This document shows positions 28,681 to 49,402 of a stretch of DNA of 64,000 nt, in pieces. How positions within the stretch are numbered: position 1 is the first letter of the stretch; each line of letters begins with the position of its first letter. This DNA comes from Jiangella endophytica. Lineage in GTDB: Bacteria > Actinomycetota > Actinomycetes > Jiangellales > Jiangellaceae. Where the stretch lies: the NCBI RefSeq assembly GCF_003427025.1, contig NZ_QVAI01000016.1, positions 62,001 through 126,000 of the forward strand, written 5' to 3'. The translations under genes and the position numbers were made by a program. Under the pieces are notes generated by a model. That model was not told the DNA's origin and searched no databases. It worked only from the letters and a program-made list of their open reading frames with translations.

Positions 28681-29925
28681 ATGTCCGACTCGCCGGCCTC
28701 GTTCGCTCAGGTGCTTGCCGTGCCGCAGTTTCGCCGGCTGTGGATCGCGCATGTGCTCTCCGTGGTCGGAGATCAGCTGGCCCGGGTGGCCCTGACGGTG
28801 CTGGTCTACGAGCGCACGAACTCGGCCGGGCTGACCGCGTTGACCTATGCGCTCACCTACCTGCCCGACTTCATCGGCGGCGCCGCGCTGGCCGGTCTGG
28901 CCGATCGGTTCCCGCGGCGCAGCGTCATGGTCTCCACCGATCTCGCCCGGGCCGCGCTGGTGGCTGCCATGGCGGTCCCGGGGATGCCGCTGCTGGCGCA
29001 GGCGGCCCTGCTGTTCGTCGTGCAGGCCGCGGCGAGCCCTTTCGCCAGCGCGCGACAGTCGGTGCTCGCGGACATGCTTCCCGGGGATCAGCTCACCGCC
29101 GGGTTCGCGCTCGTGTCGATGACCTCGCAGGCGTCGTTCGCGATCGGGTTCGGCGCCGGCGCGGCCCTGGTGGCGCAGTTCGGCGCGAGCGCGGCCCTGC
29201 TGGTCGATGTCGTCACGTTCGTGGCGTCGGCGGCGATCATCCGGGTGGGCATCGGGCCGTACCGGCCGGCCGCCGCGGCCGAGTCACCGGCGCGCGGGGC
29301 GGAGCCACCGGCGCTCGGCTACTGGGCGACGGTACGGGCCGGGTGGGCCGTGGTGGCCGGCGACGCCCGCCTGCGTACGCTGCTGGCCGTCGCCTGCTGC
29401 AGCGGCTTCTACGCCGTCCCGGAAGGGCTGGCGGTGCCGCTCGGCGACCAACTGGGCGATGGGACGGCGGCGGTGGGCTGGTTGCTGGCGGCCAACCCGG
29501 TCGGCACCGTGCTCGGCATGATCGCGCTGCGGTTCCTCGGCCCGAGCCGGCGGCTGGCGTTGCTCGGGCCGATGGCCATCGGCAGCAGCCTGATCCTGCT
29601 GCCGACCGGCTGGGCGCCCGGCCTCGCCGTGACGGTGGTCCTCTGGACGCTGAGCGGGGTGCTCTCAGCGCATGACATCGTCGCCCAATCCACCTATGTT
29701 CGCCTGGCGCCGGCACAGAGCCGCGGACAGGCGATCGGGGTGGCCGTCGCCGGGCTGCGGGCAGCCCAAGGCCTCGCGATCGTCGTCGCAGGTCTGCTGG
29801 CTCAACTCGCCGACCCGGCGGTGATCGTCGGCGCAGCCGCCGCAGCAGGCACGGTGGTGACCGCCGTGGCGGTCCACCGGTGGCGGCGCGCGGTCGCGGC
29901 CGGTCCGGGGTCACTCACGCCGTAA
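28681..29925 (+). CDS. MFS transporter
   Basis: 414 residues with about twelve hydrophobic segments. It begins FRRLWIAHVLSVVGDQLARVAL, typical of the DHA3/enterobactin-exporter-like MFS group, and has the loop 2-3 motif GLADRFPRRSVMV. ATG at 28681 is used because upstream in-frame codons overlap the TetR operator region. It converges on the heptapeptide array, with a hairpin between them. Export of a small molecule is likely, but the substrate is not readable. Confidence 0.9.
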   Translation: MSDSPASFAQVLAVPQFRRLWIAHVLSVVGDQLARVALTVLVYERTNSAGLTALTYALTYLPDFIGGAALAGLADRFPRRSVMVSTDLARAALVAAMAVPGMPLLAQAALLFVVQAAASPFASARQSVLADMLPGDQLTAGFALVSMTSQASFAIGFGAGAALVAQFGASAALLVDVVTFVASAAIIRVGIGPYRPAAAAESPARGAEPPALGYWATVRAGWAVVAGDARLRTLLAVACCSGFYAVPEGLAVPLGDQLGDGTAAVGWLLAANPVGTVLGMIALRFLGPSRRLALLGPMAIGSSLILLPTGWAPGLAVTVVLWTLSGVLSAHDIVAQSTYVRLAPAQSRGQAIGVAVAGLRAAQGLAIVVAGLLAQLADPAVIVGAAAAAGTVVTAVAVHRWRRAVAAGPGSLTP

Positions 29926-29948
29926 TCGCCGATTCCATCGGCGGGATT
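29924..29948. terminator. Hairpin between MFS gene and heptapeptide array
   Basis: CGCCGAT-TCC-ATCGGCG (29927-29943) is a perfect 7-bp stem with partial outer pairing. It lies 1 bp after the MFS stop and 20 bp beyond the last array stop codon, so it could terminate both converging transcripts. Confidence 0.55.
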
Positions 29949-29962
29949 GCACCTCGCGTACG

Positions 29963-29986
29963 TCAGTCCCAGGAGTTGCCGCGCAT
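29963..29986 (-). CDS. Heptapeptide mini-gene 1 (MRGNSWD)
   Basis: ATG-CGC-GGC-AAC-TCC-TGG-GAC-TGA, with GAGAGAGG ending 8 nt before the ATG. It is the last unit in the direction of transcription and uses TCC for serine. Confidence 0.65.
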   Translation of the reverse strand: MRGNSWD

Positions 29987-30036
29987 CGTGGTCACCTCTC
30001 TCGGTGCTCGTGTGGGTCGGTACCGGTCGTCGGGTG

Positions 30037-30060
30037 TCAGTCCCAGGAGTTGCCGCGCAT
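30037..30060 (-). CDS. Heptapeptide mini-gene 2 (MRGNSWD)
   Basis: Same peptide and same GAGAGAGG site as unit 1, again with serine codon TCC. It differs from unit 1 only in one spacer base. Confidence 0.65.
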   Translation of the reverse strand: MRGNSWD

Positions 30061-30110
30061 CGTGGTCACCTCTCTCGGTGCTCGTGTGGGTCGGTACTGG
30101 TCGTCGGGTG

Positions 30111-30134
30111 TCAGTCCCAGCTGTTGCCGCGCAT
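30111..30134 (-). CDS. Heptapeptide mini-gene 3 (MRGNSWD)
   Basis: Same peptide, but serine is AGC instead of TCC. This two-base exchange keeps the amino acid and requires a non-serine intermediate if made stepwise. The ribosome-binding site is intact. Confidence 0.65.
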   Translation of the reverse strand: MRGNSWD

Positions 30135-30184
30135 CGTGGTCACCTCTCTCGGTGCTCGTGTGGGTCGGTACTGGTCGTCGGGTG

Positions 30185-30208
30185 TCAGTCCCAGCTGTTG
30201 CCGCGCAT
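30185..30208 (-). CDS. Heptapeptide mini-gene 4 (MRGNSWD)
   Basis: Serine is AGC. The ribosome-binding site is retained although the rest of its upstream spacer differs from the other units and is 3 nt longer. Confidence 0.65.
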   Translation of the reverse strand: MRGNSWD

Positions 30209-30261
30209 CGTGGTCACCTCTCTCGGCATCGTCGTCGTGGGCTCAACGTGGTACTCGTCGG

Positions 30262-30285
30262 TCAGTCCCAGCTGTTACCGCGCAT
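30262..30285 (-). CDS. Heptapeptide mini-gene 5 (MRGNSWD), first in transcript
   Basis: Glycine is GGT and serine AGC, both synonymous with the other units. The upstream sequence is unrelated to that of units 1-4 yet supplies its own ribosome-binding site (GGGAGGG ending 7 nt before the ATG), so translation signals are kept independently of the repeat. Confidence 0.65.
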   Translation of the reverse strand: MRGNSWD

Positions 30286-30321
30286 GACCACGCCCTCCCT
30301 TCGACGTCGAGGCCGGGCAGG

Positions 30322-30350
30322 CGCCAGTTCGGTCCGAAGCGGACCTGGCG
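30322..30350 (-). promoter_or_regulatory. Structured leader hairpin upstream of the heptapeptide array
   Basis: On the minus strand, GGTCCG-CTT-CGGACC forms a 6-bp stem inside an outer CGCCA/TGGCG pairing. It lies about 37 nt before mini-gene 5. It may be a 5' stabilising element, an attenuator or part of a cis-regulatory RNA. I could not define a convincing -35/-10 upstream. Confidence 0.45.
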
Positions 30351-30506
30351 AGTGACTCGGTGCTCGCACCTTCGCTCCCAGCCGTGGTAGCGGGCGGATT
30401 CCGGCTGACTGAGCCGCCTTCGTCCATTTTGTGTCCTACGTGTTGGTTACACTGTGCCGCACGTCCTCACACATTGGGTGAGCGGAGCCCGCCGGGCGGA
30501 GGCGCC

Positions 30507-31829
30507 GTGCGTTTGAGATCTTGGTTTCGGGGCTGGGCGCTGTGGCGCACGCCCCGGCCGAGTCGGCTCCTGATTCTGGCCATCAACGCCCTGGCGGTCA
30601 TCGTCGCGGGCGTGACCATGGTCCTCGTTCCGGTCCCGATCGGGCCGGTCGACCTGGTCCGCTTCGGTGTGCTGGCCGGCTGCGCGTGGGCGGCGACCGA
30701 GCTGACCCGGCATGTCGAGCAGCGGCGGGCGATCGCGCATTCGCCGACGGTCGCCCACATCGACTCCGCCGCGGTGTGGGTCATGGCCACCACCATCGTG
30801 CTGCCGCCAGCGTTGGCCATGACCATGGTCGTCCTGACGAACCTGCTGCTCTGGGACCGCGTCAAACGTCGCAGGACGCCTCCGTACCGAGCCGTCTACA
30901 CGACCTCGACCATCCTGCTCGGCACCAGCCTCGCCGTCATCATCCTCGCCACCGGCCTGGGCGGCTATCCCGGCCTGCCCACCACGGCCGTCGACTTCGG
31001 CGTCATCGCTCTGGCCGCCACCGTCGCCTGGGCGGTGAACTTCGGCCTCATCGTGGCCGCGATCGCCACCCACAGCCCCACCACCTCGGCCCGCGAGCTG
31101 TTCTCCGACCTCTCCGGTCAGGTCCTCGAGGCCGGGGCCGCCGCGTTGGGCGTGCTCGTCGCCGTCACCATCGTGACCACGCCGGCGGCCATGCCGGCGG
31201 TCCTGGTCGTCATCGCGGCGCTGCACCGAGCCAGCCTCGTCACCGGGCTGGAGAAGGCCGCGAGCATCGATGCGAAGACCGGCCTCGCGACTTCCGCCCG
31301 CTGGCATCACCACGCCGAGCGACTGCTGGTTCGCGCACAGGATGCCGGCACCGGGTTGGGTGTGCTCATCGTCGACATCGACCACTTCAAGATGGTCAAC
31401 GACACCCACGGCCACCTGTTCGGCGACAAGGTCCTCCGGGCCGTCGCCAACGAACTGCGTGGCGAGGTGCGCGAGCTCGACGCCTGCGGACGATGGGGCG
31501 GCGAAGAGTTCACCGTGGTCGTCGCCGACATCGACAGCGACCAGAGCCTGTGGCGCATCGCCGAGCGGATCCGGCTGCGCATCCAGACCGTCATCATGGA
31601 CGCCCCGTCCGGCGAGACCGCGGATCCGGTGACGATCACGGCCTCCGTCGGCGGCGTCCATCACGTCCCCGACGCCTCGACGACCGTCGACGACCTCGTC
31701 GCCGCGGCAGACGCCGCGCTGTACGAGGCGAAGCGAACCCGCAACACCAGCCGCGTCTACCTCACCAAGGCGCAACCCCAGCAGCCCACGATTCCGGTGC
31801 AGGAACGCACCGACCCGCCAGTGCACTGA
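30507..31829 (+). CDS. Membrane-bound GGDEF diguanylate cyclase
   Basis: 440 residues from GTG at 30507, with GGAGG 4 nt upstream. An N-terminal block of about six membrane helices (about 22-250) precedes a GGDEF domain. The active-site loop is RWGGEEF (about 329-335), with the metal-binding IVDIDHFKMVND upstream. RELD five residues before the loop fits the allosteric I-site, so product inhibition by c-di-GMP is expected. There is no recognisable EAL or sensory domain beyond the membrane part. It is divergent from the heptapeptide array and shares its roughly 220-bp upstream region. Confidence 0.92.
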   Translation: MRLRSWFRGWALWRTPRPSRLLILAINALAVIVAGVTMVLVPVPIGPVDLVRFGVLAGCAWAATELTRHVEQRRAIAHSPTVAHIDSAAVWVMATTIVLPPALAMTMVVLTNLLLWDRVKRRRTPPYRAVYTTSTILLGTSLAVIILATGLGGYPGLPTTAVDFGVIALAATVAWAVNFGLIVAAIATHSPTTSARELFSDLSGQVLEAGAAALGVLVAVTIVTTPAAMPAVLVVIAALHRASLVTGLEKAASIDAKTGLATSARWHHHAERLLVRAQDAGTGLGVLIVDIDHFKMVNDTHGHLFGDKVLRAVANELRGEVRELDACGRWGGEEFTVVVADIDSDQSLWRIAERIRLRIQTVIMDAPSGETADPVTITASVGGVHHVPDASTTVDDLVAAADAALYEAKRTRNTSRVYLTKAQPQQPTIPVQERTDPPVH

Positions 31830-33847: not shown

Positions 33848-34423
33848 GTGGCTGGGGACGGCGGGGGCAGGGCGGCGCGGTCCCGGCGCCACGACCCGCA
33901 GCGCCGGGACCGGATCGTCGCGGCCTGCCTGGAGGTGATCGCCGAGCACGGTGTCGCGGGCACGTCGCACCGGCGGGTGGCCGCGGCCGCCGACGTGCCG
34001 CTGGGCTCGATGACCTACCACTTCTCCGGGATGGACGAGCTGCTGCGGGCGGCGTTCGGCCGCTTCGCGTCGTCGGTGGCCGAGCGGTTCGAACGGCGGC
34101 TGGCCGCCGCGGCGACGGCCGCGGACGCCCGGCAGGCGGTCGCGTCGATCATCGTGGGCGAGGTGTTCGGCAGCCGGCGTGACCTCGTGCTGACCCACGA
34201 GCTGTACACGCTGGCAGCGCGGGAGCCGGCCTTCCGGGCGGTGACGAACGCGTGGATGCGCCGCAGCCGTGCTGCTCTGGAACGGCACTTCGACACGACC
34301 ACCGCGCTCATGCTGGACGCCTTGATCGAGGGCCTGACCATTCACGAGGCGCTCGGCACGCAACCGCGCGATCCCGCCCTCGTCCGCCTGGCCGTCGACC
34401 GGCTGGCCGGCCAGCCGGAATGA
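33848..34423 (+). CDS. TetR family transcriptional regulator
   Basis: 191 residues from GTG at 33848. The helix-turn-helix lies at about 18-60 (EVIAEHGVAGTSHRRVAAAADVPLGSMTYHF), with a TetR-C-like helical remainder. The 9-bp gap to the acetyltransferase gene and the palindrome at 33240 suggest a self-regulated two-gene operon. The ribosome-binding site is weak, consistent with coupling to the upstream gene. Confidence 0.9.
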   Translation: MAGDGGGRAARSRRHDPQRRDRIVAACLEVIAEHGVAGTSHRRVAAAADVPLGSMTYHFSGMDELLRAAFGRFASSVAERFERRLAAAATAADARQAVASIIVGEVFGSRRDLVLTHELYTLAAREPAFRAVTNAWMRRSRAALERHFDTTTALMLDALIEGLTIHEALGTQPRDPALVRLAVDRLAGQPE

Positions 34424-49265: not shown

Positions 49266-49402
49266 GACATCAGGGGCTTCCACCGACGCGAAGGCGCCGG
49301 CAGCGGTGCGAGCCTGCCGGCACGGCAACGACCGGCAACGGCCGGCAACGGCCGGATCGTCGACACGAAGGAACGCCCATGTCCGCCAGTCCCGCCATCG
49401 AG
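49266..49402 (+). repeat. Leader cassette copy 2 (inverted duplicate) driving the DUF1345 gene
   Basis: A copy of the 46237-46353 cassette, including the ribosome-binding region AAGGAACGCCC and codons for MSASPAIE. A 10-bp unit (CGGCAACGRC) occurs three times here against once in copy 1, explaining the extra 20 bp. Confidence 0.75.

Follow-up and report, generated by a model that had tools for sequence, protein, structure and literature searches.

Genes and features at the locus

The window, a stretch of 64,000 nucleotides from Jiangella endophytica (contig NZ_QVAI01000016.1, positions 62,001 to 126,000), harbors on its minus strand at 29963-30285 five units that each read from ATG through MRGNSWD to TGA (Table 1). 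The initial annotation, made from the letters alone, had described five tandem mini-genes for this heptapeptide, which the sequence and a pattern search of the 7.85 Mb genome confirm: the five units are the sole matches at up to two mismatches, and the reversed control pattern gives one match. The unit starts are spaced by 74, 74, 74 and 77 nt, so that the annotated unit length of 74 bp holds for four units and fails for the fifth; TRF finds a period of 74 with 3.6 copies and 98% matches. The ribosome-binding sites had been read correctly, GAGAGAGG standing 8 nt before the ATG in the four left-hand units and GGGAGGG before the fifth, as had the synonymous differences (two units with serine TCC against three with AGC, one with glycine GGT against four with GGC).

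Table 1. Features of the array region, positions counted from the first nucleotide of the window
Feature	Position	Strand	Evidence and remarks
MFS transporter, convergent with array	28681..29925	+	Pfam MFS_1, E 2e-20; neighbour in 27/90 cyclase loci
Short palindrome	29928..29942	.	Sequence; between MFS stop and array end; similar in relatives
MRGNSWD mini-gene	29963..29986	-	Ser TCC
MRGNSWD mini-gene	30037..30060	-	Ser TCC
MRGNSWD mini-gene	30111..30134	-	Ser AGC
MRGNSWD mini-gene	30185..30208	-	Ser AGC; RBS GAGAGAGG 8 nt upstream
MRGNSWD mini-gene, copy nearest promoter side	30262..30285	-	ATG CGC GGT AAC AGC TGG GAC TGA; RBS GGGAGGG upstream
Strongly conserved stretch, cyclase-array interval	30422..30473	.	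Nearly invariant in 6 Jiangella loci
Membrane diguanylate cyclase	30507..31829	+	Pfam GGDEF, E 4e-35; hydrophobic segments; divergent pairing

The array runs towards the 3' end of the gene for an MFS transporter, the reading frame of which is open from 28531; comparison with relatives suggests 28681 as its start (MSDSPASF...). The constant neighbour of the array, absent from the initial annotation, is a divergent membrane diguanylate cyclase of 440 residues, composed of a hydrophobic N-terminal domain of about 235 residues followed by a GGDEF domain that contains GGEEF and, before it, RELD (RxxD).

The palindrome is a possible two-way terminator; a terminator scan found none. The conserved stretch in front of the cyclase gene is a candidate for a shared divergent promoter or operator, and a scan for sigma-70-type promoters found none there. 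Rfam gave no match at E ≤ 1 for positions 29000-31500, and viral contigs contained no exact match. On plasmids there was no DNA match to the array, and the cyclase domain had a single weak match at the protein level (Pseudonocardia, 24.7% identity). Elsewhere in the window, at 49318-49355, lies a 10-bp tandem repeat (CGGCCGGCAA, 3.7 copies) that is unrelated to the array.

Spread of the mini-gene family

Nine of the family's 22 genomes, counting that of the window, have arrays for the same heptapeptide or one differing in a single residue (at most one mismatch). Six of these, all of the same genus, encode MRGNSWD and three, from two other genera, encode MRANSWD, in 2-6 copies in a row of which some are GTG-started; the spacers vary in length and sequence among the genomes. 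Recurrence in 9 of 22 genomes indicates that the array is more than chance. A scan of genome contigs returned seven stretches, three being Jiangellaceae arrays and four single matches (MRGNRWD, MRGNCWD, MRTNSWD and MRANSWD; three Pirellulaceae-type, one Hyphomonadaceae); the single matches had no tandem copies and no ribosome-binding site convincing by eye and were taken as chance.

The mini-genes are limited neither to MRGNSWD nor to tandem copies, which goes beyond the initial annotation. The MFS gene has paralogues within the same family, and beside nearly all of the closer ones there are arrays of other heptapeptides, namely MRDNTWT, MRDNTWS, MRDNNWN, MRDTTWS, MRDSNWT and MRDVNWT; no array was found beside three more distant homologues. 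The MRDTTWS arrays have GTG starts, variants and up to 13 units. There are also longer units, such as MRDNKWSR, MRDTNWNG and the 15-residue double MRDTNWVLRDTNWSW. Internal repeats of the motif are seen within longer units at three loci (L058, L193, L181), MRDTNWVLRDTNWSW being present in several tandem copies and MREIRWTREIRWTRA in a single copy. The window's genome contains a second cassette on contig C56 (364153-365324; L073, L241) with MRDVNWT twice, MRDSNWT twice, a cyclase and an MFS gene; two peptide types stand here inside one array.

When pairs of consecutive M-R-x-x-x-W-x units were sought with no other information, 18 of 393 genomes of the class matched (reversed control, 4 matches in two genomes). 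Sixteen of the 18 belong to the window's family; the others are G027, with MRHTSWS twice, and G030, with five different arrays on five contigs. Several cassettes per genome are possible, as in the window's genome with two (MRGNSWD; MRDVNWT/MRDSNWT) and in G030 with five.

Single-copy mini-genes occur in family f17. The pattern [x]RGV[T]W[x] preceded by a ribosome-binding site matched 77 of 250 genomes from 17 genera (control, 0) at up to two mismatches anywhere, a search that misses strongly diverged members. Tryptophan is encoded by TGG in all 77 rows, arginine by CGG and CGA, glycine by three codons and valine by four; the stop is TGA, TAG or TAA, and one row reads through. In the rows without ATG a GTG one codon further on would give an M-R-x-x-x-W-x heptapeptide and may be the true start. 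The mini-gene family as a whole comprises mostly 7-9 codons, ends in Trp-x-stop, is present in 1 to 13 copies and extends over seven actinobacterial families.

Selection on the peptide

The initial annotation held that selection acts on the peptide itself and that nonsynonymous changes as common as synonymous ones in homologous arrays would speak against this. In the 29 loci that contain at least two standard units, the codons not fixed by the unit pattern (3, 4, 5 and 7) have 24 silently variable and 4 replacement-variable sites; random single changes would be expected to give about 79% replacements (P 3e-13, sites treated as independent). A further count, 42 silent to 4 replacement, is biased, since in the pattern used to find units the start, the tryptophan, the stop and two bases of the arginine codon (the first and second) are fixed and longer units are omitted. 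The longer units of L059 (MRDTNWNG, MRDTNWSE) and of L069 (MRDAHWES, MRDAHWNW), whose C-termini differ within the locus, lie outside the count of 24 versus 4.

Comparison of 304 pairs of units from the same locus gave identities of 0.97 for codon positions 1 and 2 and 0.88 for position 3 (arginine, tryptophan and stop being partly fixed by the pattern), 0.70 for the ribosome-binding region, taken as the 16 nt preceding the start, and 0.43 for the more upstream spacer. Equivalent codons interchange, ATG with GTG as start and TGA with TAA and TAG as stop, which together with the 24 silent and 4 replacement sites bears out the proposed selection on the peptide. Among the other short open reading frames inside the arrays there is no Met-Arg unit without tryptophan. 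A counter-example, and the sole nonsense form seen, is that of L184, an f18 relative, with a stop in place of the tryptophan codon (MRNII). At the level of sequence comparison these patterns show that the mini-gene units are genuine coding genes with a constrained peptide.

Pairing of mini-gene and cyclase

All 27 tandem arrays, which had been found in 18 of 393 genomes without using the cyclase, lie 165-391 bp from a cyclase of this type (measured on pattern-matched units) and all are divergent from it. A divergent GGDEF gene is the feature common to the array neighbourhoods of G027 and G030 and to the window. Thirty of the 77 single-copy f17 loci were fetched; in each of them the mini-gene is divergent from the cyclase, at a distance of 159-265 bp except in two (770 and 811).

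Starting from the cyclase, a profile of the N-terminal domain made from 26 sequences found 91 places in 71 of 393 class genomes. A phylum-wide search for the cyclase domain, in which the best nine candidates per genome were scored, yielded one of 296 genomes, the window's own, and searches widened to the orders of G048 (1 of 5 genomes) and G030 (1 of 1) brought no further cases. The mini-ORFs were then counted at 90 cyclase loci for which 250 nt or more of upstream sequence was available. Under the strict definition a mini-ORF has 6-10 residues, tryptophan next to last and a ribosome-binding site, and lies within 650 nt. The divergent strand carries such an ORF in 59 of the 90 loci, the other strand in none; in 100 dinucleotide-shuffle sets the mean was 0.85 and the maximum 4. 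Allowing other C-terminal lengths and weaker sites gives 69 of 90, the relaxed cases being chosen by inspection with no matched control. By family the relaxed counts are 29/30 in f1, 2/2 in f7, 5/5 in f10, 25/39 in f17, 2/6 in f18, 1/1 in f28, 5/5 in f31 and 0/2 in f46. The 21 loci with no recognised mini-ORF belong to f17 (14 of 39), f18 (4 of 6), f46 (2 of 2) and f1 (1 of 30).

The losses of the mini-ORF cluster in clades of the cyclase tree, and the same or similar peptides tend to accompany related cyclases. Since the loci are related, the counts of pairing are not independent events. The gene arrangement shows that the association of mini-gene and cyclase extends over seven families. One locus (L193, G016:C29) contains two cyclases of the paired type with an MFS gene between them and an array at only one.

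The motif GGEEF is conserved in 72 of 73 readable cyclase loci (GGEEL in one; 17 of the 90 loci are cut off or masked before the motif) and RxxD is found five residues before GGEEF in 71 of 72, so that the paired diguanylate cyclases look active. The N-terminal domain of the window's cyclase matched no family in Pfam or NCBIfam, and its profile matched no sequence in the PDB. One of the 26 members of the domain reached MASE9 with an E value of 0.015; no MASE model was reached by the window protein. A structure model of the cyclase from four sequences had a mean pLDDT of 41 and was too poor to use.

The MFS transporter and other neighbours

The MFS transporter and the cyclase are both present in 18 of the 22 genomes of the family and both absent from the other four, two of which are incomplete (75% and 81%). 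The transporters adjoining the cassette in 27 of the 90 loci form one sequence cluster (25 of 30 loci in f1, one in f10 and one in f28). In the Jiangellaceae the MFS transporter usually faces the array. Outside this family it is a rare neighbour (2 of 60 loci; in L112 a third, more distant MFS is situated beyond the array), and export by the MFS protein therefore cannot be general. The transporter is a partner of the cassette in some lineages only; its role as an essential partner was dropped, the cyclase occurring without it in most other lineages. A transporter 69% identical to that of the window (L067, G021:C9:100084-101301) has neither array nor cyclase in its 1.5 kb flanks.

In f17 the place of the MFS gene is taken by a gene for a GTPase-like or a single-strand-binding protein (names from reading the sequences). 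The downstream neighbour of the array, convergent in the window, varies among lineages. That no co-directional modifying enzyme adjoins the array, as the initial annotation had stated, is supported, and no modifying gene recurs beside the 90 cyclase loci. A neighbouring protein of 230 residues gave no match in Pfam. Among the second-type Jiangella cassettes (L241-L252), 12 of the 15 fetched have a ThiF-nitroreductase gene 3-6 kb away that adjoins a GAF-GGDEF-EAL gene, surroundings that suggest a c-di-GMP gene cluster.

Comparison with known systems

The peptide pheromone systems of Gram-positive bacteria include those of the Agr and RRNPP types. The mini-genes share with them a short peptide gene beside a candidate receptor and a private peptide for each paralogous locus, but the array has no visible leader or processing enzyme, and the candidate receptor is a GGDEF enzyme rather than a histidine kinase or an RRNPP regulator. 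As in a pheromone-receptor system, the peptide gene and the gene for a membrane protein are conserved side by side, in all 27 arrays and in all 30 single-copy loci fetched. Like MASE-type membrane diguanylate cyclases, the window's enzyme joins a hydrophobic N-terminal domain to a GGDEF domain that looks active; it differs in that the N-terminal domain matches no MASE model and that the enzyme is paired with a peptide gene. An attenuator or leader peptide needs a co-transcribed downstream gene, whereas at the window locus the downstream neighbour is convergent.

As in microcin C (mccA heptapeptide, MccB, MFS pump MccC), the mini-gene of the array has seven codons, begins with Met-Arg and lies near an MFS gene, which faces the array and by position is a candidate counterpart of MccC. 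Microcin C requires, however, an adenylyltransferase and a C-terminal asparagine, neither of which is present at the window locus. The ThiF matches of the genome, sought as MccB-like adenylyltransferases, lie on contigs C4, C56 and C3 and none on the window's contig C8; MRGNSWD ends in Asp, and the peptides of relatives end in Thr, Ser, Asn, Ile, Val, Ala, Gly and others. The array differs further in its tandem copies and in having a diguanylate cyclase as partner. A microcin C-like ThiF 2 kb from the MFS gene of the second cassette was rejected, as it belongs to the ThiF-nitroreductase protein beside the GGDEF-EAL gene.

The biarylitides (bytA pentapeptide plus P450) are similar in having an ORF below annotation limits, possibly in several copies, with an aromatic residue near the end. 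The peptides of the mini-genes differ in having 7-9 residues and no M-x-aromatic-x-aromatic motif, the motif being that given in PMC13417212. No P450 gene lies beside the array, the only match on contig C8 being at 34137, 58 kb away.

Proposed function and alternatives

We propose that the window harbors a peptide-plus-cyclase cassette, the conserved unit of which would be the peptide gene and the cyclase gene, divergently transcribed from a shared control region. The tandem seven-codon genes would make MRGNSWD, probably as formyl-MRGNSWD, from their own promoter. Reiterative translation has been shown for ORFs of 2-8 codons and for mccA, where it keeps the length of the microcin C precursor (PMC6495379); the MRGNSWD ORF would be short enough for it, and tandem copies would raise the output further. 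The peptide would most likely be exported, in the window by the facing MFS protein, and the membrane domain of the cyclase would bind it as a sensor, the synthesis of c-di-GMP being set by the peptide level. The distinct peptides of distinct cassettes would then act as separate channels. A dedicated peptide beside a membrane enzyme whose N-terminal domain falls outside the described families is best read as a ligand with its sensor; export, sensing and c-di-GMP output we infer from the arrangement. That the peptide is a dedicated ligand tuning the cyclase, exported by the MFS protein where one is present, is the reading we favor, tentatively. Against it count the 21 cyclase loci with no recognised mini-ORF, the premature stop of L184, the rarity of an MFS neighbour outside the Jiangellaceae and a membrane domain that matches no known receptor family. 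Of the three functions considered in the initial annotation, a signal fits best, and a minimal RiPP precursor and a translation-dependent regulator fit less well.

The strongest rival to an exported ligand is a peptide that stays inside the cell and binds the cyclase directly as a micro-regulator, be it inhibitor, activator or assembly factor, with no cell-cell signal and with the MFS gene as an unrelated syntenic neighbour. Seven codons leave no room for a leader or signal peptide, most loci outside the Jiangellaceae have no MFS neighbour, dosage could be set by copy number, and the strict divergent pairing would suit a stoichiometric regulator equally well. We consider it rather unlikely. 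Against it stand the joint presence of MFS and cyclase in 18 of the 22 family genomes, with both missing from the other 4, and the recurrence of the MFS beside cassettes in three families.

Distinctly less probable is that the mini-genes supply the precursor for a minimal RiPP or a peptide-nucleotide natural product to which the cyclase only responds or which it only regulates. The resemblance of a seven-codon precursor and an MFS pump to microcin C, the biarylitide precursors of 5 residues with six copies possible (PMC13417212) and the invariant tryptophan as a natural modification site are in its favor. It is at odds with the absence of a recurring modifying gene beside the 90 loci, with a contig that has no ThiF match and its sole P450 match 58 kb from the array, and with the confinement of the nearby ThiF-nitroreductase to second-type loci (12 of 15 fetched), a type other than the window's. 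Just as improbable, in our estimate, is that the act of translation matters and not the free peptide, the mini-ORFs controlling the array RNA as ribosome/tRNA traps or as sensors that depend on translation. Strong ribosome-binding sites in tandem, a fixed tryptophan just before the end and a length of seven codons, within the 2-8 codon range of reiterative translation (PMC6495379), would suit such a device, which lacks a co-directional downstream gene to control, the downstream neighbour differing among lineages. The non-Trp residues are moreover kept despite free synonymous change, which points to the peptide sequence. Near-identical unit DNA within some arrays could finally mean non-coding elements at the DNA level, binding sites or duplicated filler; the synonymous-only pattern, the start and stop swaps, the placement of the ribosome-binding sites, the serine TCC/AGC exchange and the single-copy members in other families bring this reading close to refuted.

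Implications

A search of full-text literature, with few subscription papers among it, found no description of the peptide, of peptide signals with diguanylate cyclases or of Jiangella with GGDEF. We know of no described peptide gene that is paired with a diguanylate cyclase. The divergent position of the mini-genes beside the cyclase suggests a peptide signal for the c-di-GMP pathway that had so far gone unrecognised. The signals perceived by actinobacterial c-di-GMP enzymes are largely unknown, as stated for several Streptomyces proteins in PMC6205966. A genetically encoded, synthesizable heptapeptide for each cyclase would make the question of the perceived signals directly testable, and the pairs of peptide and membrane domain form a natural set for specificity studies. 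Conserved seven-codon genes, which are far below annotation limits, can be found by searches for tandem units and divergent pairs.

More tentatively still than for the ligand of the window's cyclase, we suggest a family of leaderless heptapeptide pheromones, encoded by 1-13 seven-codon mini-genes, each for its own membrane diguanylate cyclase. They would be the first peptide ligands of GGDEF enzymes to be genetically encoded and may provide several private channels per genome that feed into the c-di-GMP control of filamentous actinobacteria.
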